This document shows positions 38,326-54,712 of a stretch of 64,000 nucleotides of DNA, in pieces. Numbering within the stretch: position 1 is the first letter of the stretch; each line of letters opens with the position of its first letter. The stretch comes from Bacillus sp. EAC. GTDB taxonomy: Bacteria > Bacillota > Bacilli > Bacillales > Bacillaceae_G. The notes below the pieces were generated by a model. That model had not been told where the DNA came from and did no database searches. It was given only the letters and a program-made list of their open reading frames with translations. The DNA is taken from NCBI RefSeq assembly GCF_002156875.1, contig NZ_NCSY01000014.1, positions 62,001-126,000 on the forward strand. Reading direction: 5' to 3'. The translations under genes were made by a program, and so were the position numbers.

Positions 38326-39347
38326 TCAACACCTACTTTCTCTTGAAGTGTATAGTCTTTCTCCCATTGTGTTGTATACATCCAACAGCTAACCTCTGTT
38401 GATTGGTCAATTGATTGGAGTTCCGGTACAGAGTGTTTACAAATATCCTTAGCATGAGCACAGCGGGGGGCAAAGCTGCATCCTTTTGGCATATTGTAGG
38501 GACTCGGAACAGTACCAGGAATAGTCGTTAATTCATCTTGATCCATATCAAGGCGTGGTAAAGAGTTTAATAGTCCGATCGTGTATGGATGTTTAGGATT
38601 TGTAAAAAGATCTTTAGCTAATGTATACTCAACAATTTTTCCAGCGTACATAACAGCAACTCGATCACAAGTTTCATAGACAACCCCTAAATCATGAGTA
38701 ATTAAGATGACGGCTGTGCCGAAATCCTTTTGTAACGTTTTAATTAGTTCTAATATTTGTGCTTGAATCGTTACATCTAGTGCAGTTGTTGGTTCATCTG
38801 CAATTAATACTTCTGGATGACAGGCAAGAGCCATTGCGATCATAACTCTTTGTCTCATCCCACCGCTAAGTTCATGTGGCTCTTGTTTTGCTCTTTTTTC
38901 AGGAGAGGGGATACCTACTAATCGAAGCATTTCAACTGCTTTTTTCCAAGCTTCTTTCTTGCCAAGTTTTTGATGAAGTCGAATGGCTTCAGCGATCTGT
39001 TCACCTGCAGAATAAACCGGGTTTAATGACGTCATCGGCTCTTGAAAAATCATTGAGATTTCATTTCCTCGAATTGAACGCATCTGTTTTTCAGTCTTAG
39101 TTAATAAATCTTCTCCTTTAAAAAGAATGTTGCCTCCTGTAATTTTTCCTGGTGGGGATGGGATAAGTCTTAAAAGTGATAATGATGTAATACTTTTACC
39201 ACTTCCAGATTCTCCTACAATTCCTAATGTTTCTCCTTTATTTAAAGTAAAGCTAATGCCATCAACAGCTTTACTCGTACCTTCATCTGTAAAAAAGTAG
39301 GTTTGTAGATTTTTTACCTCAAGAATTGTTTCATCAAATTGTTTCAT
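38322..39347 (-). CDS. Oligopeptide-type ABC importer ATPase (OppD/DppD-like)
   Basis: 341 residues. Walker [10 protein letters not shown]-loop [12 protein letters not shown], signature [15 protein letters not shown], Walker [15 protein letters not shown] and the C-terminal extension [14 protein letters not shown]. Pairs with the following OppF-like protein to energise the two permease subunits. Starts 12 bp after the OppB-like gene, with AAGGAGGCACTAAG as the ribosome binding site. Confidence 0.93.
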
Positions 39348-39359
39348 CTTAGTGCCTCC

Positions 39360-40280
39360 TTAATTCAAGTCAATTCGTTTATTAAAGTATCGATAGAGGA
39401 CATCAACAGCTAAATTCATAAATACGAAGATGACAGAAGCAATTAGCACGCCACCTTGAACCATTGGTATATCCCTTGTTCTAATCGCATCAACTATTAA
39501 TCTACCAAGTCCATTAATTGCAAAAACTGACTCTGTTAAGACTGTGCCACCAAGAAGAGCACCGAACTGAAGACCAACAACTGTTATGACAGGGATCAAC
39601 GCATTTTTAAGACCGTGCTTATAAATAATGACATATTCCTTTAGACCTTTAGCTCTTGCAGTACGAATATAGTCCTGACGAACAACTTCGAGCATACTTG
39701 ATCTTGTCATTCTGGCTACAATCGCGGCTCCACCTGCACCAAGCGTTAATGCTGGAAGAATCATATGTTTAATTGTCCCCCAACCTGCAACTGGAAAAAT
39801 ATGAAGATTGACTGAAAAAAAGTAGATTAGCATTAAGCCGAACCAAAAGCTAGGTAAAGAGATTCCTAATAAAGCAATGATCATAATCGTAATATCTGAG
39901 ATTGAATATTGTTTCGTTGCAGAGATAATACCAGCTAACATCCCTAATACAACTGTAATAAAAATACTCGCTAGAGCAAGTTCAAGGGTAATCGGTAAGC
40001 GAATCATAATTTCGTCTAAAACTGGTCGATTATTACGAAGAGATTCACCAAAATCACCTTGTAAGACATGAAATACATAATCAAAATATTGAACAAATAT
40101 TGAACGATCTAGACCAAGTTGATGACGAATCATTTCAATTGTTTGTTTAGTTGCACCTTCACCAGCAAGTAGCGTAGCTGGATCACCAGGGACCATTTGC
40201 ATAATAAGGAATACGACTAAACTTACTCCAAGTAAAACTGGGATTGTTTGCAAAATTCTTCTAATAATAAATATAAACAT
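39360..40280 (-). CDS. ABC importer permease (OppB/DppB-like)
   Basis: 306 residues, six membrane helices, beginning MFIFIIRRILQTIPVLLGVSLVVFLIMQMVPGDPA, a standard OppB/DppB N-terminus. The coupling motif EYVIIYKHGLKNALIPVITVVG (EAA loop) contacts the ATPase. Forms the membrane channel with the OppC-like protein encoded just upstream in the operon. Confidence 0.93.
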   Translation of the reverse strand: MFIFIIRRILQTIPVLLGVSLVVFLIMQMVPGDPATLLAGEGATKQTIEMIRHQLGLDRSIFVQYFDYVFHVLQGDFGESLRNNRPVLDEIMIRLPITLELALASIFITVVLGMLAGIISATKQYSISDITIMIIALLGISLPSFWFGLMLIYFFSVNLHIFPVAGWGTIKHMILPALTLGAGGAAIVARMTRSSMLEVVRQDYIRTARAKGLKEYVIIYKHGLKNALIPVITVVGLQFGALLGGTVLTESVFAINGLGRLIVDAIRTRDIPMVQGGVLIASVIFVFMNLAVDVLYRYFNKRIDLN

Positions 40281-40292
40281 ATACTCTCCTCC

Positions 40293-41195
40293 TTATTTTT
40301 TCATCCTAGGATCAAGGGCATCTCTTAGACCATCACCAAAAATATTAAATCCAAGTACAAGTGTTGAGATTGCAATCCCTGGAAATAAAGCTATATGTGG
40401 AGCACTGAATAAATAATCTCGTCCACTACTTAACATCGCTCCCCATTCTGGAGAAGGAGGCTGAGCACCTAAGCCTAGATATGATAAGCCAGCTGCTGAT
40501 AAAATCGCAGTTGCTAGTCGTAAAGTAGCTTGTACGATAATAGGAGATAGAATATTCGGAAAAATATGTTTGAAAATAATGGTTGAATCAGAAGCACCTA
40601 ATGCCCGAATGGCGTCAATATACTCAAGTTTTCTAACAGAAAGTGTGGAACCTCGTACGATACGAGCAAACATAGGAATTGAAAACACGCCAACTGCTAC
40701 CATTACATTTATTAAACTAGGGCCTAGTGCACTAATAATCGCAAGTGCTAGCAAAATACCAGGGAAAGCGAGTAGTACATCAACAATTCTCATAATAATC
40801 GTATCCATCCATTTTCCGTAAAACCCTGCTAACAATCCAAGAATGATACCAATAAATGCTCCGAAAAATACAGAAACAAATCCGACTGATAATGAAAGGC
40901 GACTTCCATAAATTAATCTGCTTAATATATCTCTACCTTTATCATCTGTCCCCATCCAATGATCTACCGACGGAGGCTGGAGTTTGTGAATTAAATCAAT
41001 TGCAAATGGATCCTTTGGAGAAATAAGTGGTGCGAAGATGGCTACTAAAATATAAAAGAGTACAATGTATCCACCGATTAGCGCTAATTTATTTTTCTTA
41101 AACTTTTTATAAAAAACTTTCCACCGTTTAAGTTGTTGAGATTTCTTTTTTTCTAATTTTGTTTCATTATGATTCATTAAGATCTCTGGCTTCAT
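40293..41195 (-). CDS. ABC importer permease (OppC/DppC-like)
   Basis: About 300 residues with an N-terminal cytoplasmic tail and six membrane helices. It has the family segments APLISPKDPFAIDL, HWMGTDDKGRDILSRLIYGSRLSLSVG and the EAA-type loop LGASDSTIIFKHIFPNILSPI. I place the start at 41195 because AAGGAGGAAGGAACAACT precedes that ATG. An ATG at 41222 would add nine residues but lacks a ribosome binding site. First gene of the importer operon, divergent from the first binding protein gene. Confidence 0.92.
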   Translation of the reverse strand: MKPEILMNHNETKLEKKKSQQLKRWKVFYKKFKKNKLALIGGYIVLFYILVAIFAPLISPKDPFAIDLIHKLQPPSVDHWMGTDDKGRDILSRLIYGSRLSLSVGFVSVFFGAFIGIILGLLAGFYGKWMDTIIMRIVDVLLAFPGILLALAIISALGPSLINVMVAVGVFSIPMFARIVRGSTLSVRKLEYIDAIRALGASDSTIIFKHIFPNILSPIIVQATLRLATAILSAAGLSYLGLGAQPPSPEWGAMLSSGRDYLFSAPHIALFPGIAISTLVLGFNIFGDGLRDALDPRMKK

Positions 41196-41247
41196 AGTTG
41201 TTCCTTCCTCCTTTTCTTTCATTAAATTTATGCAAAATAGGTATTGA

Positions 41248-41333
41248 AGTAAATATGATGTGTAAAAGCAGTAAAGATAGTGTAAAAACGAGTAAAGATT
41301 CTGAAAATATAAAATTTTATTTTTTTTTATAAT
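41248..41333 (+). promoter_or_regulatory. Predicted activator sites and promoter of the first binding protein gene
   Basis: Direct repeats AGTAAAT (41248), AGTAAAG (41270) and AGTAAAG (41291) are spaced 22 and 21 nt apart on one helix face. TATAAT lies at 41328-41333, exactly 37 nt after the last half-site start. No good -35 is present, as expected for an activator-dependent promoter. The same geometry recurs at 46042 and 49800. The sites lie between divergent operons and may also affect the importer operon. Confidence 0.72.
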
Positions 41334-41408
41334 TTGAATAAGCCTGACGTACCCATAAAAAATTCACTTGGATAAACATAAGGCAAGTTTGAAGAGGAGG
41401 AAAAAATA

Positions 41409-42965
41409 ATGAAGAAAAGAACGGCTGGTTTTCTATTTGCATCCTTATTAACAATCTCATCTGTTTTATCAGCATGTACGTCTGATCAGACAAGTAGTAA
41501 TGAAACAGGAGGGAAAGCGAAAGCAGGAGGAACTTTAGTAGTTGCTCGACTTTCTGATGCGACTACTTTAGATCCACATTTTATTACAGATATTCCATCT
41601 GCGAACGTTGTATATGAAAAGGTATATGAAACATTAGTCGTGCCTGATAAAAATATGGAACCACAACCACTACTCGCTACAGAATGGAAACAGATTGATA
41701 ATGTTACGTGGGAGTTTAAACTTCGTGATGGAGTTAAATTCCATGATGGGGCACCTTTTAATGCGGATGCTGTTAAAACAAATTTCGAGAGAATACTAGA
41801 TCCAAAAACAGCTTCGCCACAAGCAGGTAAATTTGAAATGATTAAAGAGATCAAAGTAGTTGATGATTCAACGGTTCAATTTATTTTGAAATATCCTTAT
41901 GCACCACTGTTATCAATCTTAATGAGTAATGAAGGTAGTATTATTAGTCCAAAATCGATTGCAGAAAATAGTGATAAAATTGGACAAAATCCAGTTGGAA
42001 CTGGACCTTATGTTTTTAAATCATGGAAGTCAGGCGAAGAAATTAATATTGTAAAAAATAATGAGTATTGGGGCAATAAACCTAAAATAGATGGCGTTGT
42101 ATTTAAGGTTGTTCCTGAAGATGCGACAAGACTAGCAATGATTGAAACAGGTGAGGCTCATGTAACTGACCAAGTGCCAGTTACTGAAATTGAGCGAATA
42201 GAAGCTTCAGATACGATGGATTTATATCGTACAGATGGACTAGCAGTCGAATACTTAAGCTTTAATGTAAAGAAAAAGCCTTTTGATGATGTACGAGTTC
42301 GTAAAGCAATTGCACATGCAATTGAAGTTGATTCAATTATTAAAGGTGTATATAACAATGTAGGTACAAGAGCAAACTCAACAATGAGTCCTAAGGTTTT
42401 TGGATATGATGCCAATATTAAAGGCTACGACTATGATATTAATGAATCTAAAAAACTACTAAAAGAAGCAGGCATTAAAGATGGATTTGAATTTACATTA
42501 ACAACAAGTGATCGTAAAGAAAGAATAAATATGGCAGAGGTTATTCAATCTCAGTTAAAAGGCATAGGTATTAAAGTGAAAATCCAAGTCCTTGAATATG
42601 GTGCTTATATTGGTGTAATTGCAAAAGGAGAGCATCAAGTTTCTATAGGAGGTTGGGGAAATGCTACAGGAGATGGCGATTACAATCAATTTAATCTTTT
42701 TGATAGCAAATCTCAAGGTGCTGCAGGGAATAGTTCATTCTACAGCAACCCTGAAGTAGATAAGTTAATTGAAACTGCACGTAAAGAATCTGACAGCGAG
42801 AAACGAAAAGAATTGTATTCACAAGCACAAAAAATTGAAAGTGAAGAAGTACCTTATGTACCGATTCGTAACTATGAGCACTTAGCAGTATACGGTTCAA
42901 CTGTTAAAGGACTTTGGTTGAATCCAGCAAGTTATTTAATGCTTGATGACGTAACAGTGAAATAA
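41409..42965 (+). CDS. ABC importer substrate-binding lipoprotein (SBP_bac_5), first copy
   Basis: 518 residues. Signal peptide with lipobox VLSAC (Cys about 23) and a Ser/Asn-rich linker, then the family-5 extracellular binding fold (TLVVARLSDATTLDPHF, WEFKLRDGVKFHDGAPFNADAVKTNFER, VRKAIAHAIEVDSIIKGVY). Binds the substrate outside the membrane for the divergent Opp-type importer. Ribosome binding site AAGAGGAGGAAAAAATA. A paralog lies at 46152. The family is broad, so the ligand cannot be told. Confidence 0.93.
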   Translation: MKKRTAGFLFASLLTISSVLSACTSDQTSSNETGGKAKAGGTLVVARLSDATTLDPHFITDIPSANVVYEKVYETLVVPDKNMEPQPLLATEWKQIDNVTWEFKLRDGVKFHDGAPFNADAVKTNFERILDPKTASPQAGKFEMIKEIKVVDDSTVQFILKYPYAPLLSILMSNEGSIISPKSIAENSDKIGQNPVGTGPYVFKSWKSGEEINIVKNNEYWGNKPKIDGVVFKVVPEDATRLAMIETGEAHVTDQVPVTEIERIEASDTMDLYRTDGLAVEYLSFNVKKKPFDDVRVRKAIAHAIEVDSIIKGVYNNVGTRANSTMSPKVFGYDANIKGYDYDINESKKLLKEAGIKDGFEFTLTTSDRKERINMAEVIQSQLKGIGIKVKIQVLEYGAYIGVIAKGEHQVSIGGWGNATGDGDYNQFNLFDSKSQGAAGNSSFYSNPEVDKLIETARKESDSEKRKELYSQAQKIESEEVPYVPIRNYEHLAVYGSTVKGLWLNPASYLMLDDVTVK

Positions 42966-42980
42966 ATTATTGGTCAAAAT

Positions 42981-43013
42981 AGAGGACAGCATACACACGT
43001 TATGCTGTCTTCT
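42981..43013 (+). other. Hairpin between binding protein and amidohydrolase genes
   Basis: Stem GACAGCATA/TATGCTGTC, extended by AGAG/TTCT, with a 7-nt loop and no full T run. Hairpins after a binding protein gene commonly stabilise its mRNA or cause partial termination, giving more binding protein than downstream enzyme. Inferred here. Confidence 0.65.
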
Positions 43014-43030
43014 AAATTAGGAGGGAAAAT

Positions 43031-44539
43031 ATGATTGATCTATTACTAATTCATGGTACGGTCATTACAATGGACCCAAAACGAAGAATACTACATGACG
43101 GTTCCATTGCTATTTCAAATGGCAGAATACTAGACATAGGTTTAACCGAAAATCTGGAAATGAAATATGAAGCAAAAAAAGTGATTGATTGTAAGCATCA
43201 ATGTATCTTACCAGGATTAATCGATGTTCATGGTCATGGCGGTCATTCCATGTTTAAGACAATCGCTATGGAAAATATTGATTTTTGGATGCCGATTATG
43301 ACAAATACGTATAAGCATTTTGTAACAGATGATTTTTGGTATTACGAAGGTAAACTCTCTGCTCTTGAAAGATTAAAAGCGGGTGTGACAACAGGAGTAA
43401 GTGTATTAGGTTCGATGCCACGGTCAGATGATCCAATTTTCGCTATAAATCATGCGAAAGCATATGCTGAAGTTGGCGTCCGTGAAGTTGTTTGTACTGG
43501 ACCATGTAATCCTCCATGGCCACATCTTTTTAGCAGATGGGTTGATGGGAAAAGAATCATAAAAGAAGTTTCCTATGAAGAAGTACTAAAAGGTGCTGAA
43601 GCTGTTATTGAAGCTTTAAATCATGCCAATGACGACCGAACTAGAGCATTTATTACACCATTTGTCATTGTAACGTCCGTTGATCCCTCAAACCCTACTT
43701 CTCCTGACAGACTTTATGGATTAACAAATCATGATCTTTATCAAGCAAAAAAAATAAGAGAAATTGCAAGGAAATATAACACAAGGATACACTCTGATGC
43801 ATTTGGTGGAATGATTCATTTAGCAATACAAGATAAAGAAAATGCATTATTAGGTCCTGATGTCCATCTCCAACATTGTCGTGGAATTTCATTTGATGAG
43901 GCTAGGATTCTAGCAGAAACAGGTACAAATATTAGTGCTTCACCAGGATTTGGGCAAGTTCTTGCACGCACACCAATTACCGAGTTAATCGAAATGGGTG
44001 CAACTGTAGCAATCTCAACTGACGGGACTTCACCTTCAACGAGCTTTGATCTATTTCAAGCAATGCGAAAAACTCAGTTCGTTCACCAAGCAGCATTAAG
44101 AGATTACTATTATTTACCCCCAGGCAAGTTGTTAGAAATGATTACGATCGATGCAGCGAAATGTATCGGTTGGGACGATGAAATTGGTTCACTTGAGATT
44201 GGGAAAAAAGCGGATGTCATTACTGTTAATTTACATCAGCCACATCTGACTCCAGAATTTATGCATGTCCACCGTCTTGTTTTTCAAGCAGTTGCTAGTG
44301 ATTTAGAACATGTAATTGTTGATGGGAAATTAATCATGGAAGGACGAAATGTAAGAACAGTTCATGAAAGTACAGTGTTAAATGAAGCAAATGAAGAAGC
44401 GTTTTCGACGATTAAGCGTGCTGGTTTAGAAAAATATATGCAACCTACGAAATATTTTTGGGGACATGCACGTGCTTATGTTGATGAAAAGAGATATGAA
44501 GAGAGTGAAAATAAAGTGGCTATGTGGGAAGGAGAATAA
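43031..44539 (+). CDS. TRZ/ATZ-type amidohydrolase, first
   Basis: 502 residues. Metal-dependent amidohydrolase fold: N-terminal composite domain (LLLIHGTVITMDPKRRILHDGSIAISNGRILDIG), HxH on strand 1 (PGLIDVHGHGGHS), H in TRIHSDAFGG (strand 5), H in HLQHCRGIS (strand 6) and D in ISTDGTSPS (strand 8). The usual deaminase Glu after the strand 5 His is not obvious. The family includes S-adenosylhomocysteine, guanine and triazine deaminases or hydrolases. The ribosome binding site AGGAGGGAAAAT follows the hairpin. Probably co-transcribed with the binding protein before and the amidohydrolase after. Confidence 0.85.
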   Translation: MIDLLLIHGTVITMDPKRRILHDGSIAISNGRILDIGLTENLEMKYEAKKVIDCKHQCILPGLIDVHGHGGHSMFKTIAMENIDFWMPIMTNTYKHFVTDDFWYYEGKLSALERLKAGVTTGVSVLGSMPRSDDPIFAINHAKAYAEVGVREVVCTGPCNPPWPHLFSRWVDGKRIIKEVSYEEVLKGAEAVIEALNHANDDRTRAFITPFVIVTSVDPSNPTSPDRLYGLTNHDLYQAKKIREIARKYNTRIHSDAFGGMIHLAIQDKENALLGPDVHLQHCRGISFDEARILAETGTNISASPGFGQVLARTPITELIEMGATVAISTDGTSPSTSFDLFQAMRKTQFVHQAALRDYYYLPPGKLLEMITIDAAKCIGWDDEIGSLEIGKKADVITVNLHQPHLTPEFMHVHRLVFQAVASDLEHVIVDGKLIMEGRNVRTVHESTVLNEANEEAFSTIKRAGLEKYMQPTKYFWGHARAYVDEKRYEESENKVAMWEGE

Positions 44540-44540
44540 G

Positions 44541-46010
44541 ATGAAAACAAAGTTAAAAGGAAGATATGTCATCGGATTTGACGGTAGTGATCATGTCATT
44601 TTAGAAAATTCTGAGATTGTTTTTGAAAAGGATACGATTTTATATGTTGGTAAAAATTACGCAAATGAAGTGGATGAGGTTATAGATGTTGGAAAAGCGA
44701 TTCTTAGTCCAGGTTTCATTGATTTAAATGCTTTAGGTGATATTGATCATGATATTTTACATTTTGAAGCCAGTTCTAATAGACAGAAAAATCTTCTCTG
44801 GTCAGAAGACTATGTTCAACATGGACATCACGAATTGATGACAGAGGAAGATGAAGCGTTTAAGTCTTTATATGCTTATTCCCAACTTATTCTACATGGA
44901 ATTACGACTGCAATGCCCATTACGAGCGTTTTTTATAAAAATTGGGCTGAAACATATGAAGAATTAGAGGAAGCTGCAAAACATGCGGCAAGCCTTGGGT
45001 TAAGAATTTATCTTGGACCAAGTTATCAATCAGGTATAAGAGTCGTCCAACAAGATGGCACGATTAAATTACACTGGGACGAAAAAGCAGGTGAAGCTGG
45101 TTTAGAGAGAGCCGTTAAGTTTATCGAAACTTTCGATGGTTCCTATGATGGTCTAGTTAGAGGAATGCTTGCGCCAGAAAGAATTGAATCACAAACTGCT
45201 GATGTTTTAGTAAAAACAAAATATTATAGTGAGAAGTTAAACGTACCAATTAAACTGCATGCAGCACAAGGAAGTTTTGAATTTAACACAATCGTGAAAG
45301 AACATGGGGTTACACCAATTAGATATTTATATAATTTAGGTTTTCTTGGGCCAAAAACGGGAATACCGCATGCCCATTTTGTGTCTGGTTATAGTGAAGC
45401 AAATTATAAAATAGATAATGATATTTCGTTACTAAAAGAAACAAATACGACAGTTATACACTGTCCACTTATTATAGGAAGACATGGTTCTACACTTGAA
45501 TCATATGCAAAATATAAAAGTGAGGGAATTAATATTGCACTAGGTACAGACACATTTCCACCAGATATGTTTCAAAATATTCGAACTGGAAGTATGCTTT
45601 CGAGAATTGTTGAAAAAGAAGTTAAAGGTTCTACATTTGCTGACTTTTTTCGTTCTGTTACGATTGATGCAGCAAATTTCCTTAATCGAAGTGACCTTGG
45701 AAGAATTTCCGTTGGAGCAAAAGCAGATATAATCGCGATTGATTTAGATGGGTTTCATATGGGTGTACTAGATGATCCGATTCGAACGATGTTTGTAAGT
45801 GGATCCGGAAGAGACGTTAAATTATCAATCATTAATGGGAAAATCGTTATGAAAAACCAAGAAATATCCAATGTCAATTTGGAAGATTTGAAGCTGAAAG
45901 GACAAAAATATTTTAACAAGATGAAAAAGGGATATTTGGAAAGAGACTTCGAACAGCATACAAAGAAGGAGTTATTTCCACAATCTTTTCATTTTGTAGA
46001 TTCGATTTAG
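44541..46010 (+). CDS. TRZ/ATZ-type amidohydrolase, second, without strand 1 HxH
   Basis: 489 residues. Composite domain MKTKLKGRYVIGFDGSDHVILENSEIVF; strand 5 His in IKLHAAQGSFEF; strand 6 His in PHAHFVSGY; strand 8 Asp in LGTDTFPPDM. Strand 1 reads PGFIDLNALGDIDHD, where the family normally has DxHxH, so one pair of metal ligands is missing. It may use a different metal site, or pair with the previous enzyme. ATG 44541 follows GAAGGAGAATAAG, 1 bp after the previous stop. The frame is open from 44466 inside that gene but not coding. Confidence 0.83.
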   Translation: MKTKLKGRYVIGFDGSDHVILENSEIVFEKDTILYVGKNYANEVDEVIDVGKAILSPGFIDLNALGDIDHDILHFEASSNRQKNLLWSEDYVQHGHHELMTEEDEAFKSLYAYSQLILHGITTAMPITSVFYKNWAETYEELEEAAKHAASLGLRIYLGPSYQSGIRVVQQDGTIKLHWDEKAGEAGLERAVKFIETFDGSYDGLVRGMLAPERIESQTADVLVKTKYYSEKLNVPIKLHAAQGSFEFNTIVKEHGVTPIRYLYNLGFLGPKTGIPHAHFVSGYSEANYKIDNDISLLKETNTTVIHCPLIIGRHGSTLESYAKYKSEGINIALGTDTFPPDMFQNIRTGSMLSRIVEKEVKGSTFADFFRSVTIDAANFLNRSDLGRISVGAKADIIAIDLDGFHMGVLDDPIRTMFVSGSGRDVKLSIINGKIVMKNQEISNVNLEDLKLKGQKYFNKMKKGYLERDFEQHTKKELFPQSFHFVDSI

Positions 46011-46041
46011 TAGATATTGATTAGATGATTTTTCGAAAACA

Positions 46042-46105
46042 AGTAAAGAAACTGAAAAAACTAGTAAAGATTTTCAAAAATAATATTCTGAATATTTTAT
46101 ATAAT
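46042..46105 (+). promoter_or_regulatory. Predicted activator sites and promoter of the second binding protein gene
   Basis: AGTAAAG at 46042 and 46063 (21 nt apart) and TATAAT at 46100-46105, 37 nt after the second half-site start. Identical geometry to the sites at 41270-41333 and 49800-49863. Half-sites extend as AGTAAAGAAACT and AGTAAAGATTTT. Confidence 0.75.
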
Positions 46106-46151
46106 TAGATAAATATTTAGAAAACAAACAAAAAGCAGGGGGTCGAAGTCT

Positions 46152-47717
46152 ATGAAATTTAAAAGTGGAATAGGGAAATCTTTTCTAGTACTTTTAACGG
46201 CTGTTGCAATTACTGGTTGTTCGTCTAATCAAAGTGTCGGTACAAAATCAAATAACTCAAGCAATGAATCGAAAGGTGGTAGCACATTAGTCATTGCTCG
46301 TTTATCGGATGCAGAGAATTTGGACCAGCAATTTATGTCCACAATTAATGCAGCAAGTGTAACGCATCATAAAATTTATGAAGGGCTTGTTCAACGAGAT
46401 AAAAATAATGAAATCCAGCCTATGCTAGCTGAAAAATGGAACCGAATTAATGAAACGACATGGGAGTTTAATCTTAGACATGATGTACAGTTTCATGATG
46501 GTACTCCTTTTAATGCAGAGGCAGTAAAAAAGACGTTTGATCGGTTATTAGATCCAAAAGTTGCATCACCTAGAGCTGTCGTTTTTAAAATGGTAAATCA
46601 AGTGAAAGTAGTTGATGAATACACAGTTCAATTCATCTTAAAAGAACCTTTTTCTCCTCTTCTTTCAATTTTAGCAAATCATGAAGGTGGAATTATTAGT
46701 CCGAAAACGATTAACAAGTATGGGAAAGACATTATCCAAGAACCAAATGGAACTGGCCCTTTTGTATTTGATTCATGGTCACCAGGCCAAGAAATTACTC
46801 TAGTTAAAAACAAGAATTACTGGGGTGACAAACCAAAAGTGGACAAAGTGATCTTCAAGGTTGTCCCAGAGGATTCTACAAGAATATCGATGATTGAAAC
46901 AGGAGAAGCACAAATTGCTGAACCCCTTCCAGTTGCTGTAATGGACCAAGTTGAATCTTCAACAGCGATGGATGTATACCGTAGTGAAGGATTTGGTACT
47001 GAATATATTGGGTTTAATGTAAATAAAAAACCATTCAACGATGTCCGCGTTCGTAAAGCTATTGCTCATGCTGTTGAAATGGATTCAATTATAAAAGGTG
47101 TGTTTAATAATGTAGGTAAAAAGGCGAATTCAGCGATGGGATCGAAAGTATTTGGATATGATGCTGAATTGAAAGCATATGATTACAATTTGAAAGAGGC
47201 AAAGAAGTTATTGAAGGAAGCAGGCTATGCGAATGGATTTGATGCAACAATTCTTACGATGGATAGTAAAGAACGAGTTAATTTAGCAGAAGTGATTCAA
47301 TCTCAGTTAAAAGGAATAGGGATTAATTTAAAAGTACAAGTCATGGAGTATGGTTCTTTTGTTGAACGAGTAAATAAAGGACAATCGCAAATGTTCATTA
47401 TTAGCTGGAGGAATGCAACTGGAGATGCAGATTATAATCAATATAATCTTTTCCATACAGATTCACGTGGAGCAGCTGGAAACACATTCTTTTATAGTAA
47501 TCAAAAAGTCGATGATTTAATCAATGCTGCTCGTAAAGAAACGGAAGAAGAGAAGCGTAAAGAGCTTTACGCCGAAGCACAAGAAATTGAAATGAGTGAT
47601 GCGCCATATATTCCAGTACGCGTAATCGAAAATGTGGCTGCAGTCTCAAAAGATGTAAAAGGATTTTCAATCAGCCCATCTGGCTATTTAGAAATTAATG
47701 ACGTATCAATAAAGTAA
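46152..47717 (+). CDS. ABC importer substrate-binding lipoprotein (SBP_bac_5), second copy
   Basis: 521 residues with lipobox VAITGC (Cys about 23). The core is strongly similar over its length to the protein at 41409 (TLVIARLSDAENLDQQF, HDVQFHDGTPFNAEAVKKTFDRLLDPKVASPRA, VRKAIAHAVEMDSIIKGVFNNVGKKANSAM). It has its own activator-type promoter and terminator, so it is a separate unit. No further permease or ATPase genes accompany it, so it probably shares the divergent importer with a different ligand preference. Ribosome binding site CAGGGGGTCGAAGTCT. Confidence 0.93.
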   Translation: MKFKSGIGKSFLVLLTAVAITGCSSNQSVGTKSNNSSNESKGGSTLVIARLSDAENLDQQFMSTINAASVTHHKIYEGLVQRDKNNEIQPMLAEKWNRINETTWEFNLRHDVQFHDGTPFNAEAVKKTFDRLLDPKVASPRAVVFKMVNQVKVVDEYTVQFILKEPFSPLLSILANHEGGIISPKTINKYGKDIIQEPNGTGPFVFDSWSPGQEITLVKNKNYWGDKPKVDKVIFKVVPEDSTRISMIETGEAQIAEPLPVAVMDQVESSTAMDVYRSEGFGTEYIGFNVNKKPFNDVRVRKAIAHAVEMDSIIKGVFNNVGKKANSAMGSKVFGYDAELKAYDYNLKEAKKLLKEAGYANGFDATILTMDSKERVNLAEVIQSQLKGIGINLKVQVMEYGSFVERVNKGQSQMFIISWRNATGDADYNQYNLFHTDSRGAAGNTFFYSNQKVDDLINAARKETEEEKRKELYAEAQEIEMSDAPYIPVRVIENVAAVSKDVKGFSISPSGYLEINDVSIK

Positions 47718-47736
47718 AGATGATAAATGAAAGGTA

Positions 47737-47774
47737 TTAAGTCGATTTCCAAACACGGAAGTCGGCTTTTTTTG
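47737..47774 (+). terminator. Terminator after the second binding protein gene
   Basis: Stem AAGTCGATTTCC/GGAAGTCGGCTT (wobbles) with a 6-nt loop, then TTTTTTT. Confidence 0.88.
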
Positions 47775-47875
47775 ATTCATTCTAATCTTAATGTGCAAAA
47801 GACTTTGGATTTTCTTCAATTAAATTTTTAGCAGTTCCTAAGAGAAAAAATTGGTTTATTTTTTAGAGTTAGAAT

Positions 47876-47928
47876 ATACTGTTAATAACATAATACTGTC
47901 ATTAACAGTATTATGTTATTAACAGTAT
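47876..47928. promoter_or_regulatory. Perfect 24-bp-arm palindrome upstream of a PadR-like regulator gene
   Basis: A 53-bp element with two perfectly complementary 24-nt arms and a 5-nt centre (CATTA). Each arm starts and ends with ATACTGT (or its complement ACAGTAT) around TAATAACATA, so four heptamer copies are present. It lies 65 nt before the regulator start. The most likely role is an operator for autoregulation, possibly containing the promoter. It lacks a T run and so is not a terminator. Confidence 0.75.
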
Positions 47929-47992
47929 GATGAAGTTATCCATGATATCAAAAACGATTATTTTTCCATTGCATTTAGGAGGTTAGTTATTT

Positions 47993-48334
47993 ATGAAACA
48001 TACAGGAAGACATACAGGGGCATTTCTTTTACTGTTTTTAACAGAGGGAGATAGCTACGGAGGCAAACTTTTGCAGAAATGTGAGGATGATCTTCCCATC
48101 AATCCAATTGATAGTGCCATATTGTATCGCACACTTAAGCAACTAGAGAAAGAAGGGGCAGTTGAGTCCTATTTGGGTACATCTGAACAAGATAAGCCGA
48201 TAAAAATGTACAAAATTACTGAAGAAGGGAAATGCAAATTAGAAGAATTTCAAATCAATATTGAAACAAAACTTAAGAATTTATCTTTTTTCTTAAACAA
48301 ATATGAAGTATGGAAGGAGTCTGATCATGATTAA
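47993..48334 (+). CDS. PadR-like transcriptional regulator
   Basis: 113 residues with a winged helix (HTGAFLLLFLTEGDSYGGKLLQKCED...AILYRTLKQLEKEGAVESYLG...MYKITEEGKCKLEEF) and a short C-terminal helix, the PadR family layout. It is preceded by TAGGAGGTTAGTTATTT and by the long palindrome. It overlaps the first half-permease gene by 8 bp, so it probably controls that pair. Ligand unknown. Confidence 0.8.
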   Translation: MKHTGRHTGAFLLLFLTEGDSYGGKLLQKCEDDLPINPIDSAILYRTLKQLEKEGAVESYLGTSEQDKPIKMYKITEEGKCKLEEFQINIETKLKNLSFFLNKYEVWKESDHD

Positions 48335-48809
48335 TGCTACTATCCTTTACAGTCTGGCTATTATTCTTACCAGTATTTCTTTTATAAAGGATCGAAATAA
48401 AACAAAAGATGCTCTATTGCAGTCATGGAAAATGTTTCGTAATATTTTACCGGATGTTTTATCAGTTATGCTTTTTGTTGGACTATCACTATCATTACTA
48501 ACGCCATCCTTAATTTCCTCAATCATCGGAGAGAAATCTGGATTAATGGGAATTGTTTATTCTACAATAATTGGATCTGCCGTACTAATTCCAAGCTTTG
48601 TCGTATTTCCTCTTGGCGATACATTAGTTCAAAATGGTGCTGGACTCCCACAAGTAGCTGCATTAATGTCTACGATGATGTCAGTAGGAATAGTTACTTT
48701 ACCTATGGAACAAAAATTATTTGGTAGTAGGTTTGCTTATACTCGTAATGCAGCTGGAATAGTAATGTCGCTTGTTTTTGCATATATTATTTGGGTGGTA
48801 ATTGTATGA
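48327..48809 (+). CDS. Permease half, first (YraQ/ArsP-like)
   Basis: 160 residues, about five hydrophobic helices, with LLQSWKMFRNILPDVLSVMLFVGLSLSLL and a central STIIGSAVLIPSFVVFPLGDTLVQNGAGLPQVAALMSTM. The pattern resembles half of the DUF318/ArsP_1 (YraQ-like) permeases. ATG 48327 follows AAGGAGTCTGATC and overlaps the regulator's end; a frame open from 48303 is longer but poorer. It overlaps the second half by 4 bp. Substrate unknown. Confidence 0.7.
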   Translation: MINATILYSLAIILTSISFIKDRNKTKDALLQSWKMFRNILPDVLSVMLFVGLSLSLLTPSLISSIIGEKSGLMGIVYSTIIGSAVLIPSFVVFPLGDTLVQNGAGLPQVAALMSTMMSVGIVTLPMEQKLFGSRFAYTRNAAGIVMSLVFAYIIWVVIV

Positions 48810-49339
48810 ATGAATTAAGAAAATATCGGTTCTTTTTCATTTTATTTTTTGGAATGATTCTACTTACTTGTATTAATCAAACAGTTGGATGGAAGGCATT
48901 TCGATTATCAGGAAATAGTATCTTAAATATGATGCTGCTACTTCCTCCTGTTTTAATATTCGTAAGTTTACTAGATAAATGGGTGGAGAAAGAAACACTC
49001 ATTAAATATATGGGGAAAAAATCTGGCATCTATGGTACACTGTTCTCCTTTTTATTAGGAGCAATTGCAGCTGGTCCACTCTATGTAGCTTTTCCAATGG
49101 CTGTACTTTTTTTGAAAAAAGGAGCTAGTATACGGTACATTGTATTTTTCTTAGGAGTTTGGACAACTGCTAAAATACCAACTGCAATATATGAATTTTC
49201 TTCATTTGGAGTTAAGTTTTCACTAATTCATATTGGTTTTGGTCTAGTATTTTACTATTTTTTAGGTATTATTTTTGAGAAGTTTTATGACCGCCGACAA
49301 ATATTGAAATCTGAAATAAATGAAGAAATATCGATTTAA
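48806..49339 (+). CDS. Permease half, second (YraQ/ArsP-like)
   Basis: 177 residues with about five helices, including VLIFVSLLDKWVEKETLIKYMGKKSGIYGTLFSFLLGAIAAGPLYVAFPMAVLFLKKGASIRYIVFFLG. The same motif type (GxxxGxxAAGPLYVAFP) faces the corresponding segment GSAVLIPSFVVFP in the first half. This suggests two halves of a duplicated-fold permease encoded separately. ATG 48806 overlaps the previous stop. A frame open from 48791 (TTG) is less likely. Confidence 0.7.
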   Translation: MNELRKYRFFFILFFGMILLTCINQTVGWKAFRLSGNSILNMMLLLPPVLIFVSLLDKWVEKETLIKYMGKKSGIYGTLFSFLLGAIAAGPLYVAFPMAVLFLKKGASIRYIVFFLGVWTTAKIPTAIYEFSSFGVKFSLIHIGFGLVFYYFLGIIFEKFYDRRQILKSEINEEISI

Positions 49340-49378
49340 GTGAGTATATTTTTATGTTAATAGATACTTTAATGAAAA

Positions 49379-49410
49379 CAGCTAATCATTGAATTGGCTG
49401 TTTTTATTTA
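49379..49410 (+). terminator. Terminator after the permease pair
   Basis: ACAGC(T/C)AAT...ATTGGCTGT stem followed by TTTTATTT. Confidence 0.75.
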
Positions 49411-49510
49411 CCTCTCTCAATAAATTTAACAGCATTTAGGTTGAGCTTTGACTAACATTAAGGCTCTTTTCTAAAAGATTGATGTTTTTAAAACAAACTT
49501 TAAATAAAGA

Positions 49511-49690
49511 AGATGATGAACGGATATGCGAGACTCCTGTGGGAGTAACGGGACAGGAGAGTCCTTAGCAGGCGTCAAAAAGGTAGGCATGCTAAAACCA
49601 TGACGTCCTGTCGTAACGCTAACGCATGCATACCAGGAGGCCCATCGCACGCCCCACGGAAATCGAGCATCTTGGAGTGGAAATCAACTT
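49511..49690 (+). repeat. Dispersed intergenic repeat, copy 3 (long form)
   Basis: About 180 bp, same orientation as copy 1: TGCGAGACTCCTGTGGGAG, GGAGAGTCC, then GCACGCCCCACGGAAATCGA and GCATCTTGGAGTGGAAATC. The extra block is at about 49574-49632 (AAAAAGGTAGGCATGC...GCATGCAT) without the CCCACA hairpin seen in copies 2 and 5. It lies in the 566-bp gap between the split permease and the deaminase genes, along with a terminator and the activator-type promoter. Confidence 0.85.
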
Positions 49691-49799
49691 AGATACTTCT
49701 TAAATAGCAACAAAGTGTACGAAAACAACCAAAATAAAAAGTCATTTAATTTATCAACTCTTTCTCCTCAATTTTTTCACTTTGGTTTGTACAAGAATT

Positions 49800-49863
49800 A
49801 GTAAAGAAACCTTAAAAATATGTAAATATACTAAAATCTTATTATTTCGATTAGTTTTATAAT
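49800..49863 (+). promoter_or_regulatory. Predicted activator sites and promoter of the deaminase cluster
   Basis: AGTAAAG at 49800 and TGTAAAT at 49821 (21 nt apart), then TATAAT at 49858-49863, 37 nt after the second half-site start. Same spacing as the two binding protein promoters. The second half-site has two changes from the consensus. Confidence 0.68.
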
Positions 49864-49905
49864 GAAATAGATTCATATATACAATGGGATGGAAGGGTGA
49901 GAGTT

Positions 49906-51153
49906 TTGTCAAATTCATATTGGTTAACAAATGTACGCCTGGAGAATGGTTTTACTTATAATGACAATGAAACAATTACTGGAACTGCAACTGGAAAATA
50001 CAATGTAAAGATTGAAGACGGAAAAATTAACTCGATTCAATTAGAAAATGAGTTAATTACCGATCAAGCTCCACAGTTTGACGTGCAAGGTCTTCTAATG
50101 GTCCCTTCATTTAAAGAAATGCACATTCATATTGATAAAACATTCTATGGCGGACCATGGAAAGCATGTATGCCTGCAACAAATGGTGTAAAAACACGAA
50201 TAGAGGAAGAACAAATATTATTACCAAAATTATTGCCAACTGCTAAAGAAAGAGCAGAGAAAATGCTTGATCTATTAGTAAGCTACGGATCAACGCATAT
50301 TCGTACACATTGTAATGTTGACCCAGTTATCGGTTTGAAAAATCTAGAAGCTACATTACAGGCTTTAGAAGGTTATAAAAATAAATTAACACATGAAATC
50401 GTTGCATTTCCTCAACATGGTTTATTAAGAAGTAATTCGGTTGAACTAATAAGAGAAGCAATGAAATATGGTGCGAATCTTGTTGGTGGAGTAGATCCAG
50501 CTTCAATCGATGAAAATATAGAACGTTCACTTGAAACAATTATGGATATAGCAGTTGATTCAAATTCTGATATAGATGTTCATTTACATGACCCAGATCA
50601 TCTTGGTCTTTTTACAATGCAAAGACTAGCAACATTAACTGAAAAAGCAGGCTGGCAAGGAAGAGTGACAGTAAGTCATGCGAGTGGATTGGCTGATTTG
50701 ACAGTTGTTGAAGCAACTGCTATTGCAGAGAGATTTGCTGAATTAGGAATTTCAATCACGTCTACAGTCCCTATTTTCAGAACGATTCCAATTCCTTTGT
50801 TACGTGAAAAAGGTGTAAAAGTAGAATTAGGAAATGATAGTCTTACAGATCATTGGTCTCCTTTTGGTATCGGGGATAATCTTGAAAAAGTTGGTCGTTT
50901 AGCTGAAAGATTCCGCATGATTGAAGAAAAATCATTGGGTAGCAGTTTAGGATTTATTACAGGTGGTAAAACTCCTTTGAATAACGAAGGTGAAAGAGTA
51001 TGGCCTGCTATTGGAGATGAAGCGAGTATTGTTCTAGTTGAAGCTAGTTGTTCAGCCGAAGCAGTTGCTAGACGAGCAAAACGTAAAGCAGTCATTTTCA
51101 AAGGAAATATTGTAAGTGGTTCGATCTCGAATTTTGAATCAACAATAGTCTAA
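49906..51153 (+). CDS. Cytosine-deaminase-like amidohydrolase, first of three
   Basis: 415 residues starting at TTG 49906. This start gives an N-terminus (SNSYWLTNVRLENGF) that aligns with the next paralog and puts GGAAGGGTGAGAG at proper distance. An in-frame GTG at 49897 would overlap that site. CodA-type features: HxH in KEMHIHIDKT, AFPQHGLL, H in DVHLHDPDHLG, H in TVSHASGL, and the metal Asp in LGNDSLTDHWSPFG. At the catalytic Glu of cytosine deaminase (HCDE in CodA) these proteins have HxHD. First gene of a tandem triplet under the activator-type promoter. Confidence 0.88.
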   Translation: MSNSYWLTNVRLENGFTYNDNETITGTATGKYNVKIEDGKINSIQLENELITDQAPQFDVQGLLMVPSFKEMHIHIDKTFYGGPWKACMPATNGVKTRIEEEQILLPKLLPTAKERAEKMLDLLVSYGSTHIRTHCNVDPVIGLKNLEATLQALEGYKNKLTHEIVAFPQHGLLRSNSVELIREAMKYGANLVGGVDPASIDENIERSLETIMDIAVDSNSDIDVHLHDPDHLGLFTMQRLATLTEKAGWQGRVTVSHASGLADLTVVEATAIAERFAELGISITSTVPIFRTIPIPLLREKGVKVELGNDSLTDHWSPFGIGDNLEKVGRLAERFRMIEEKSLGSSLGFITGGKTPLNNEGERVWPAIGDEASIVLVEASCSAEAVARRAKRKAVIFKGNIVSGSISNFESTIV

Positions 51154-51177
51154 TCTTTTATTAAAGAGAGTGATGAA

Positions 51178-52419
51178 ATGAATCAATCTTATTGGCTTAC
51201 AAATGTGAAACTTGATAGTGGATTTATGTTTGAAAATGGGAGAATTGAGCATACAGAGACTGATTTATTTAATCTGTATATTAACGATGGTAAAATTGAA
51301 AAATTACAATTAGCGGAATTACCATTGATAACACAACTCCCTGTACAGGATGCAAGAAATTTACTTGCACTCCCTGCTTTTAAAGAAATGCATAACCATC
51401 TCGATAAAACGTATTTAGGTCTTCCATGGAAAGCTTGTACCCAAGCTCCAAATTTAGTAGAACGTTTAAATTTGGAAGCAATTGAGTTAGCTGAACTCGC
51501 TAAAACGGGACAACTTCGAGCGGAAGAAATGCTTCATCTTTTATTAAAAGGTGGGGCTACACATGTCAGAACGCATGTAAATATTGACCCTTATATCGGT
51601 TTAGAGAATTTAGATGAAATTCAAAAAGCTTTACTTACCTATAAAGATAAAATGACGAATGAAATAGTTGCTTTCCCTCAACATGGCCTTTTACGCACAA
51701 AAAGTATTCCGTTAATGAAATCAGCGATGAGAGAAGGAGCAACGATAGTTGGAGGATTAGATCCAGGTGGCATCGATCAAAATATCGAAGCTTCCCTGTT
51801 TGAAATGATTGATCTTGCTGTGGAGTTTAATGCAGATATTGATATTCATATACATGATCCTGGTCATCTTGGTTTTTATACAATTAAAAAACTAGTTTCA
51901 TTAATTGAAGAAGCAGGTTGGCATAATAGAGTAGCAATTAGTCATGCTTTTGCTCTTGGGGATGTTTCATTCGAGGAATCTGATGAAATGGCAAGTAAAC
52001 TAGCAAAATTAGGTGTTTCTATCATGTCAACCGTACCGATCAACCGTGTGATGCCTCCTGTTGATTTGCTTCATGAAAAAGGAGTAAAGGTTGCTCTTGG
52101 ATGTGATGGTTTCTATGATTCATGGTCTCCATTTGGGACTGGAGATATGTTAGAAAAGGCAGGGCGTTTAGCTGAACGATATAACTGGAAAGATGAGTAT
52201 AGCTTATCTCAAACACTACAATTTATTACCGGTGGAGTGAAAACACTTGATGATAAAGGAAACCGATTATGGCCTGCAGTTGGAGATGAAGCAAGTTTGG
52301 TCTTAGTGGATGCATCGTGCTCAGCAGAGGCAGTTGCAAGAAGGTCAGAACGTGCGGCTGTATTCCAAAAAGGTAAAATTGTTTACGGTGGACTTAATTC
52401 CATACCTACTTTGAAATAA
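51178..52419 (+). CDS. Cytosine-deaminase-like amidohydrolase, second of three
   Basis: 413 residues, colinear with the first: SYWLTNVKLDSGF, HxH in KEMHNHLDKT, THVRTHVNIDP, AFPQHGLL, DIHIHDPGHLG, AISHAFALG, LGCDGFYDSWSPFG. Starts 24 bp after the first gene, with AAAGAGAGTGATGAA as the ribosome binding site. It diverges mainly in substrate-facing loops (GLPWKACTQAPNLVERL against GGPWKACMPATNGVKTR), so a different substrate is plausible. Confidence 0.88.
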   Translation: MNQSYWLTNVKLDSGFMFENGRIEHTETDLFNLYINDGKIEKLQLAELPLITQLPVQDARNLLALPAFKEMHNHLDKTYLGLPWKACTQAPNLVERLNLEAIELAELAKTGQLRAEEMLHLLLKGGATHVRTHVNIDPYIGLENLDEIQKALLTYKDKMTNEIVAFPQHGLLRTKSIPLMKSAMREGATIVGGLDPGGIDQNIEASLFEMIDLAVEFNADIDIHIHDPGHLGFYTIKKLVSLIEEAGWHNRVAISHAFALGDVSFEESDEMASKLAKLGVSIMSTVPINRVMPPVDLLHEKGVKVALGCDGFYDSWSPFGTGDMLEKAGRLAERYNWKDEYSLSQTLQFITGGVKTLDDKGNRLWPAVGDEASLVLVDASCSAEAVARRSERAAVFQKGKIVYGGLNSIPTLK

Positions 52420-52452
52420 ATTGAAAGTTGATTAAAAGAAGGGAAGAATGTC

Positions 52453-53700
52453 ATGAAATCGGTTTATTGGCTAAAGAATGCACGTTTAGAAACAAGCTTC
52501 CAAAAAGAATATGAAAAAGTTACAGGCACGCTAACTGGACTATTTCATCTGTTAATAGAGAATGGTAGAATCAGTAAGATTTTAAAAGAAGAAGAGTCCA
52601 TTTCAAATGATATACACGTAGAAGATGCAGGCGGATTATTAGTCCTTCCTTCATTTATTGAAAAGCATGTGCATCTTGATAAGACATTAATGGGTGATGT
52701 TTGGAGAGCGTGCACACCAACGTCAGGCGTGATTGAACGATTTGAAAATGAAAAATCGGTTTTACCTACAATTGCAACAAGTACTACGAAGCGTGCTGAG
52801 TCTTTACTTGAAATACTATTAGCTTCAGGTTCTACCCATGTAAGAACACATGTAGATATTTATCCAGAAATAGGTTTGAAAAATTTAGAACAAGTCAAGA
52901 CGGCACTAGAAAACTATTCGAATCGACTAAGTTCTGAGGTCGTCGCATTTGCACAACACGGATTATTGCGATCAAATGCAACTAGTTATGTAAGAGAAGC
53001 ACTTCGAAATGGAGCAGGAATCGTTGGTTCGGTGGATCCGGCTGTAGTAGATCAAAATATCGAAGCATCATTAAACCAATTATTTGATTTAGCAGTAGAA
53101 GCTAACGCGGATATCGATCTACATCTACATGATCCTGGTCATCTTGGGACATTTACAATGAAACGTGTCGTTGAATATACGAAACAAGCAGGCTGGGAAG
53201 GCAGAGTAGCAATCAGCCATGCGTTTGGAATAGGTGACGTGTCGAAAGAAGAATCCTATGAACTGGCTAATAGTTTAAGTGATGCAGGAATAACCATCGT
53301 CACAAGTGTGCCAATTAATCGACAAATGCCACCAGTTGATTTGTTAAATGAACGTGGCGTAGAAGTTGCTGTAGGAAATGATAACATTTTTGATGTTTGG
53401 TCTCCATTAGGTAATGGAGATATTTTAGAAAGAGCTGGTCGACTTGCGGAGCGATTCAAATGGATTGATGAAGTTTCGTTAGCTCAAACTCTTAAGTATA
53501 TTACTGGTGGGAAAACACCATTAGATAAAAAAGGTATTCAAGTATGGCCAAAAGTAGGAGATGCTGCAAATCTAGTTTTAGTAGATGCGAGTTGTTCAGC
53601 TGAGGCATTAGCAAGACGCGCTGAACGGAAAGCAGTTATGTATAATGGTAATATCGTAGTTGGTTCATTAAGTAAACAAAATCAATCAATTAACGTATAA
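52453..53700 (+). CDS. Cytosine-deaminase-like amidohydrolase, third of three
   Basis: 415 residues: VYWLKNARLETSF, HxH in IEKHVHLDKT, THVRTHVDIYP, AFAQHGLL, DLHLHDPGHLG, AISHAFGIG, VGNDNIFDVWSPLG. The HDPGHLG motif is kept in all three paralogs. The loop after HLDKT (LMGDVWRACTPTSGVIERF) is the most divergent. ATG 52453 follows AAGAAGGGAAGAATGTC. A weak terminator follows, so it ends the triplet unit. Confidence 0.88.
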   Translation: MKSVYWLKNARLETSFQKEYEKVTGTLTGLFHLLIENGRISKILKEEESISNDIHVEDAGGLLVLPSFIEKHVHLDKTLMGDVWRACTPTSGVIERFENEKSVLPTIATSTTKRAESLLEILLASGSTHVRTHVDIYPEIGLKNLEQVKTALENYSNRLSSEVVAFAQHGLLRSNATSYVREALRNGAGIVGSVDPAVVDQNIEASLNQLFDLAVEANADIDLHLHDPGHLGTFTMKRVVEYTKQAGWEGRVAISHAFGIGDVSKEESYELANSLSDAGITIVTSVPINRQMPPVDLLNERGVEVAVGNDNIFDVWSPLGNGDILERAGRLAERFKWIDEVSLAQTLKYITGGKTPLDKKGIQVWPKVGDAANLVLVDASCSAEALARRAERKAVMYNGNIVVGSLSKQNQSINV

Positions 53701-54692: not shown

Positions 54693-54712
54693 GCGCTAAG
54701 GAGGGGGAAACT

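Follow-up and report, generated by a model that had tools for sequence, protein, structure and literature searches.

A candidate AraC-type response-regulator regulon with a fixed 21 + 37 nucleotide promoter geometry in Bacillus sp. EAC and related Bacillales

Activation from tandem repeats is familiar in the AraC family, with AraC at I1-I2 as one case, and YesMN, XynDC and AraPST are AraC-type response regulators with LytS/YesM-type kinases near ATP-binding cassette (ABC) importers, YesM itself having an extracytoplasmic sensor domain. According to the excerpted texts of the respective reports, the MtlR operator has blocks at -72 to -58 and -50 to -36 with two sub-boxes each (PMC4514859), box A and box B of XylS are read by helices 3 and 6 (PMC5481539), the XydR paper lists features shared upstream of two targets and states that no family-wide AraC/XylS consensus is known (PMC3572039), and SLC5-coupled sensor kinases are known as fusions (PMC7918813, PMC9100948). 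Here, we analyzed a stretch of 64,000 nucleotides from Bacillus sp. EAC (contig NZ_NCSY01000014.1, positions 62,001 to 126,000; hereafter the window), for which an initial annotation had proposed a hidden regulon marked by AGTAAAG direct repeats before three transcription units, namely those of two solute-binding proteins (SBP1 and SBP2) and of a triplet of deaminase-like amidohydrolases (DA1-3). As defined by this arrangement, the regulon of the genome consists of three promoters within 8.6 kb. We predict from sequence comparison, with a probability of about 0.88, that the repeats form the tandem operator of an AraC-type response regulator (RR) encoded in the same window at 35548-36246, which would activate the three units.

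Geometry and letters of the tandem repeats

Read off the sequence, the positions initially given for the heptamers and the TATAAT hexamers were exact to the base (Table 1), and at all three promoters the heptamer starts lie 21 nt apart and TATAAT begins 37 nt after the start of the second one. AGTAAAG-like heptamers stand before all three units as described, with the refinement that the second heptamer of the deaminase unit reads TGTAAAT (two mismatches); an extra AGTAAAT half-site at 41248 is present as well, but lies 22 nt, not 21 nt, upstream of 41270. The exact pair AGTAAAG-N14-AGTAAAG occurs twice in the whole genome of 4,330,675 bases, both times in the window. A genome scan for AGTAAAG-N14-AGTAAAG-N30-TATAAT at up to three mismatches, the check suggested with the initial annotation, returned six matches, the best three of which (0, 0 and 2 mismatches) are the window promoters, while the remaining three carry three mismatches each, as in a reversed-pattern control (0 + 2 matches); frequent occurrence before unrelated genes, named at the outset as a ground for doubt, was not found. 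Loose heptamer pairs (up to three mismatches) numbered 28 in the window against 13.9 expected, a count reached in 0 of 100 shuffles. Genome-wide they were rarer (706 + 895) than in the reversed control (1064 + 1320), so that a scan for loose pairs is uninformative unless the -10 and the A-blocks are included in it. A profile built from 12 same-genus (Gottfriedia) sites, the window's own included (R1), recovered the window sites from their own genome at E values of 3e-13 to 2e-11, with the next match at E = 0.0065; this extra match, on contig C8 (E = 1.6e-4 with a second profile, R2), lies inside an open reading frame (ORF; L246) and was rejected.

Ungapped alignments of the 12 same-genus sites and of 30 sites from several genera gave the half-site aGTAAAgATAnTtAAAA, composed of a block A (GTAAA) and a block B (AAAA) about 11 nt apart, the whole being repeated at 21 nt. 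Positions G2, T3, A15, A16, G23 and A36 are invariant in 30/30 aligned sites; between units, the non-block positions vary, and blocks and spacing hold. If the first T of TATAAT is assumed to be -12, the half-sites span -70 to -53 and -49 to -32 relative to the predicted transcription start. The absence of a good -35 box was borne out, the best match to TTGACA being 2/6 at each window promoter (spacers 15-19; random mean about 3.1). We also compared 59 sites, gathered with the pattern in hand and in many cases from close relatives; at spacers of 16-18 no match better than 3/6 was found at any of them, and a TGn extended -10 was seen in 0/59. Direct-repeat half-sites with two sub-boxes each, placed next to the -35 region, are the features of an AraC/XylS operator (compared with PMC4514859 and PMC5481539, as excerpted). 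When both spacings were left free (13-30 and 26-49), 49 of the 56 non-window sites chose 21 + 37, four chose 21 + 38 and three took other values, a test that gauges the sharpness of the geometry and not its discovery, because these sites, too, were gathered with the pattern in hand.

For an upstream third half-site, the offset of 22 was best in 16 sites (the next commonest offsets, 5 each), and such half-sites occur in divergent opp/SBP1-type promoters, in Neobacillus-type promoters of the amidohydrolase gene AH1 and in one NCS2 promoter. In the window, the third half-site lies over the presumed promoter of the divergent opp importer genes, and the three-half-site array may therefore govern opp too, serving both directions. 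Binding at this place could also repress, which is the point in favor of reading the sites as repressor operators rather than activator sites. We consider this unlikely, given that the main sites end 5' of the -10 and stand where a -35 box is absent at 59/59 sites, as in the layout of AraC-family activators.

Between operator and -10, many SBP2-class promoters carry TCWGAAWATT, which resembles a CodY box. Measured against AATTTTCWGAAAATT, which we take to be the CodY consensus, the best matches have two mismatches at the SBP2 promoter (P = 0.025), three at SBP1 (P = 0.12) and five at DA1 (P = 0.90), and 11 of the 59 sites match at up to two mismatches; averaged over the 59 promoters, the best match has 3.3 mismatches where 4.5 are expected, the half-site letters themselves contributing. 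CodY as the main regulator was rejected, as it fits only part of the SBP2-class promoters and does not fit the DA1-type promoters. As an extra layer of control on SBP2-class promoters, it is a lead only.

Occurrence of the putative operator with the response regulator

The nearest relatives of the window genome belong to Gottfriedia, and all three sites are present in 12 of 13 same-genus genomes, G004 having none. We derived a position weight matrix (PWM) from only the three window sites and applied it to 24 loci of other genera. In 21 of them, its top match fell on a promoter driving a binding-protein, amidohydrolase, M24 or NCS2 unit; the scores were 14-48, and the maximum among 1.4 million shuffled positions was 15.0. 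The loci L086, L087 and L089 (Metasolibacillus, Bacillus ndiopicus) score 14.2, under the shuffled maximum (p = 7e-7 per position), and keep the same register with the letters GTCAGA/GTTAGA. The three misses concern a regulator at a contig end (L085), a locus without opp genes (L152, genome G044) and a 36% identical regulator (L154); a further match, L078:6722 (28.5), is the third half-site of that locus's array. Named genera with sites are Neobacillus, Rossellomorea, Peribacillus and Metasolibacillus, joined by several Bacillus sp. Loss of the pattern from orthologous loci, which would have spoken against the initial proposal, was not what we found, and three promoters per genome in 12/13 same-genus genomes, together with a spread of the site over 10 families of the order at E ≤ 1e-5, bear out the hidden regulon.

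In G287, an unlinked operator copy (L209:6617-8031) stands before an ORF of 171 aa, which looks like the C-terminal portion of an MctP-type symporter, and before a gene for a TadA-like deaminase, and a profile match on contig C18 (L210) has no recognised unit downstream; in G016, an operator-like pair without TATAAT (L242:5171-5234) adjoins, in opposite orientation, an unlinked DA1-like amidohydrolase gene. A search for plasmid-borne copies gave one 28% match.

In the 397 genomes of the order that were compared, the regulator has a match at E ≤ 1e-40 in 57 and none in 340. Sites at E ≤ 1e-5 were present in 35/57 regulator-positive and 0/340 negative genomes (Fisher p = 2e-35, without phylogenetic correction), the 35 spanning 10 families. 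The corresponding counts, all tallied by hand from the result tables, were 39/57 and 1/340 at E ≤ 1e-4, and 44/57 and 25/340 at E ≤ 0.01, where 43/57 have the match no more than about 6 kb from the regulator gene. Both profiles include the window's own sites, and the training of R2 also drew on sites from members of the 397-genome set (G001, G002, G008, G016, G026, G028, G053, G065, G098, G345); of the 35 strong positives, 18 lie outside both Gottfriedia and these genomes. With R1 in 60 genomes, matches at E ≤ 1e-3 outside the genus were found in G016, G017 and G028, which have the regulator, and in G049, which lacks it, and no match at this threshold was found in G026, G044 and G053 (regulators 44-50% identical). 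The G049 match (E = 3.9e-4) overlaps an ORF end (L244) and was rejected.

Two genomes provide a natural absence control. The only regulator relatives in G004 (same genus) and G014 (same family) are distant (E = 3.9e-15 and 2.7e-13), and SBP1 has no homologue in either at E ≤ 1e-150; both genomes keep deaminase genes 58-65% identical to those of the window, before which no site was found (best PWM score 7.4). In G004, the deaminase pair adjoins a divergent LysR-type gene (L258:2365-3243), a possible regulator replacement.

Together, the AraC/XylS site architecture, the co-occurrence and the two genomes of natural absence support the initial suggestion of an AraC-type activator, and its assignment to this response regulator is strongly supported by site presence following the regulator gene (35/57 vs 0/340). 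Linkage by itself cannot name the binder, and another DNA-binding protein (the PadR-like protein at 47993, CodY or another AraC protein) might read the repeats with the response regulator merely linked, as the CodY-like box beside the SBP2 site and a second regulator copy in L075 and L076 could suggest. We judge this unlikely: in the fetched loci that show the HK-RR operon and differ in their target genes, the constant part (exceptions L154, L237) consists of a histidine kinase (HK), the RR and an SSF-like membrane protein, the RR being its sole DNA-binding member; the window PadR has no match in other annotated loci; and distant regulator relatives occur in 60/60 genomes, yet strong sites are confined to this subfamily. 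As an observation on regulator copies, in L075-L078 and L090 (Neobacillus, Bacillus sp.) a copy 63-73% identical to that of the window (best segments) is divergent from AH1/AH2-type genes, with no kinase gene beside it, and is split into two ORFs in L090.

Phased A-tracts or UP elements might instead bend the DNA and make weak promoters stronger constitutively, independently of any specific regulator. This would be consistent with an A-rich block B in phase with the helix, with the missing -35 box and with the A-tract effect reported at an AraC-type promoter (PMC4514859, as excerpted). This explanation is very improbable, as A-tracts have no need of the G2, T3 and G23 that are invariant in 30/30 sites, and homologous deaminases are without sites where the regulator is absent.

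Regulator cassette, predicted target units and letter drift

The 232-aa response regulator scores 88.8 bits for HTH_AraC (cut-off 26.6) and 78.3 for HTH_18 (33.6); both recognition-helix regions are well conserved among aligned homologues, and the phosphorylation residues D8, E9, D53 and K103, as well as T or S at 81, are kept in 31/31. No sensor domain was found in the window kinase, PF06580 being its sole Pfam match, and nine kinase homologues have 250-282 aa with 1-2 membrane stretches by simple hydropathy. The constant part across fetched loci with the HK-RR operon in view is the HK-RR-SSF-like cassette, with no SSF-like gene seen in L154 (36% regulator) and L237 (near a contig end); kinase and SSF-like protein are separate ORFs and not a symporter-kinase fusion. 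The SSF-like copy of G005 falls just below the PF00474 cut-off (21.7), and 12 further partners gave no Pfam match. A family profile built without ten of the partners recovered all ten at E = 4e-17 to 5e-31, eight of them having had no Pfam match, and among ORFs of at least 300 aa in L208-L247 the cassette SSF-like genes are the sole matches at E ≤ 0.01. At what we presume to be the sodium-site helix, the window protein keeps a TST motif, the residues being altered or missing in other lineages, where the diverged alignment is uncertain. An AlphaFold2 model of a diverged partner (L086) was too poor to use (mean pLDDT 45.9).

The target units vary, from SBP with amidohydrolases (window type) to an M24 peptidase with SBP (L221-type), formamidase (with an amino-acid permease in L224 and L231) and an NCS2 permease (L149). 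Descent of the three promoters as gene-duplication copies, favored by the paralogy of SBP1 and SBP2 (a second G003 copy is 56% identical to SBP1) and by the joint travel of RR, opp and SBP, is very improbable, because blocks and spacing are kept from unit to unit while non-block positions differ, the operator is also found before genes that are unrelated (those for deaminases, M24 peptidase and NCS2 permease; before formamidase, a 21-nt repeat), and it recurs at unlinked loci (G287 contig C4, G016 at 2.69 Mb).

From the 14 regulator-positive genomes without a nearby match at E ≤ 0.01, 11 were fetched, many of their loci containing formamidase units, and nine were run in a motif-free self-comparison (G020 and G282 were fetched and left out; G165, G341 and G358 were not fetched). 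Lag 21 ranked first of 29 lags in 6/9 loci (L233, L234, L228, L236, L231, L235), some of which are near relatives and so represent fewer independent cases; in all six, a -10-like hexamer stands about 2 nt or less from the expected place (by eye). The repeated letters in L233 and L234 are TTGCAAA, in register with block B (by eye).

In the window itself, the closest solved chain to AH1 is atrazine chlorohydrolase (E = 1.1e-38), and those to DA1 are N-isopropylammelide isopropylaminohydrolases, then cytosine deaminases; the putative pathway theme is nitrogen release from N-heterocycles or amides. The oppC gene probably starts at 41195 rather than 41222, with a good sequence resembling a ribosome-binding site, ggaggaaggaac.

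Table 1. Coordinates of the promoter elements and genes in the window.
Feature	Position	Strand	Basis or remark
SSF-like membrane protein, last gene of HK-RR cassette	34231..35544	-	PF00474 29 bits (cut-off 22.8)
Response regulator, receiver + AraC two-helix-turn-helix domain, presumed activator	35548..36246	-	Pfam Response_reg, HTH_AraC, HTH_18 above cut-off
LytS/YesM-type histidine kinase, 255 aa, short membrane stretch	36243..37010	-	PF06580 76.9 bits (cut-off 25.2)
opp-type ABC importer, two ATPases and two permeases	37336..41222	-	divergent from SBP1
Third half-site AGTAAAT, SBP1 promoter	41248..41254	+	22 nt 5' of half-site 1; overlaps presumed divergent opp promoter
SBP1 promoter half-site 1	41270..41287	+	pattern scan and alignment
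SBP1 promoter half-site 2	41291..41308	+	pattern scan and alignment
SBP1 unit -10 TATAAT	41328..41333	+	
SBP1, family 5 solute-binding protein	41409..42965	+	PF00496; closest solved chain 5u4o
AH1 and AH2 amidohydrolases, SBP1 unit	43031-44539, 44466-46010	+	PF01979
SBP2 promoter half-site 1	46042..46059	+	pattern scan and alignment
SBP2 promoter half-site 2	46063..46080	+	pattern scan and alignment
CodY-box-like palindrome AATATTCTGAATATT, between operator and -10 of SBP2	46082..46096	+	2 mismatches to AATTTTCWGAAAATT; P = 0.025; suggestive
SBP2 unit -10 TATAAT	46100..46105	+	
SBP2, family 5 solute-binding protein	46152..47717	+	PF00496
Deaminase-triplet promoter half-site 1	49800..49817	+	pattern scan and alignment
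Deaminase-triplet promoter half-site 2 (TGTAAAT...)	49821..49838	+	pattern scan and alignment
Deaminase unit -10 TATAAT	49858..49863	+	
DA1-3, three PRK06846-family amidohydrolases	49897..53700	+	
EamA transporter and uracil/xanthine-type NCS2 permease, probably in DA unit	53784..56008	+	NF008502 493 bits (cut-off 370)

Proposed mechanism and comparison with known systems

In the mechanism that we propose, one regulator monomer would read each half-site through its two helix-turn-helix units, contacting block A and, one turn on, block B. Two monomers would sit head to tail, two helical turns apart, and the proximal one, covering about -49 to -32 and so reaching into the -35 region, would replace the missing -35 box and recruit RNA polymerase to TATAAT. 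In the presence of a substrate resembling an N-heterocycle or an amide, the short histidine kinase would phosphorylate the regulator, probably in concert with the SSF-like protein; the induced binding proteins would then feed the divergent opp importer, and the induced amidohydrolases and deaminases would release nitrogen.

Several observations weigh against activation by this regulator. Matches at E ≤ 0.01 in 25/340 regulator-negative genomes, one of them (G312) at 8.9e-5, indicate that weak matches carry no meaning, and two off-target PWM matches without TATAAT exceed the shuffled maximum (L150:6069, 21.2; L090:11697, 18.0). A nearby match at E ≤ 0.01 is missing from 14/57 regulator-positive genomes (regulators 35-49% identical), and lag 21 does not lead in L229, L232 and L230 (3/9) in the motif-free test. 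The co-occurrence could partly reflect linked inheritance, and the Neobacillus-type loci L075 and L076 have two regulators each (54-56% identical in the HK operon; 70-73%), either being a candidate binder. The HK-RR-SSF operon of the window has no 21 + 37 site of its own (best score -2.3), and the A-rich block B resembles A-tract or UP-element DNA, such that its conservation could be partly structural.

Beyond the window, HK, RR and SSF-like protein might constitute a three-protein "split transceptor" widespread in Bacillales and driving a 21 + 37 operator that is kept despite letter drift (AGTAAAG to TGTCAAA/GTCAGA, TTGCAAA), for nitrogen scavenging from N-heterocycles, amides and peptides, a tentative generalization to which we give somewhat less than even odds. 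A kinase with almost no sensory part would take its signal from a separate symporter-like protein, which stays in the cassette although in several lineages it apparently lacks the presumed sodium-site Ser/Thr.

A motif noticed by eye has become a regulon for which a candidate regulator can be named, the operator is quantified and targets are predicted across many Bacillales, and uncharacterised amidohydrolases (relatives of atrazine-pathway enzymes), binding proteins and formamidases become testable together as a single inducible pathway. Half-site letters that drift as the regulators diverge, at a constant geometry, are a natural data set on DNA recognition by AraC-type response regulators, and the cassette may offer a simple genetic system for signalling from a symporter-like protein to a kinase. 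Literature searches within open-licence PubMed Central, which lacks most subscription papers, turned up no account that we recognised of either this regulon or the split cassette; as far as searched, the regulon is new, and its mode of action is of a known kind.

The AraC/XylS tandem-site mode is itself known, and the fit of this system to it is well supported. As in XylS/Pm and MtlR/PmtlE, two head-to-tail half-sites of two sub-boxes each lie about two helical turns apart, for a dual-helix-turn-helix domain, with the proximal half-site next to the -35. Unlike in XylS and MtlR, the DNA-binding domain is here carried on a receiver domain, the motif is GTAAA/AAAA, a recognisable -35 is absent and the host is a member of the Bacillales; the period is 21, compared with 22 in the published MtlR consensus. 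With XydS/R of Clostridium cellulolyticum, as far as described in the excerpted text (PMC3572039), the system shares a kinase and an AraC-type response regulator linked to their targets, often with ABC importers. It differs in its regulator length (232 aa vs 532 for XydR), in a kinase without an extracellular sensor domain, in the SSF-like gene of the cassette and in targets that are amidohydrolases, not glycosidases. Finally, as in the SLC5/STAC sensor kinases CbrA, CrbS/MxtR and RpuS (excerpts of PMC7918813 and PMC9100948), a symporter-type membrane protein appears coupled to a two-component system for nutrient use, whereas here, unlike in the CbrA type, two distinct genes encode the kinase and the symporter, and the response regulator belongs to the AraC type.

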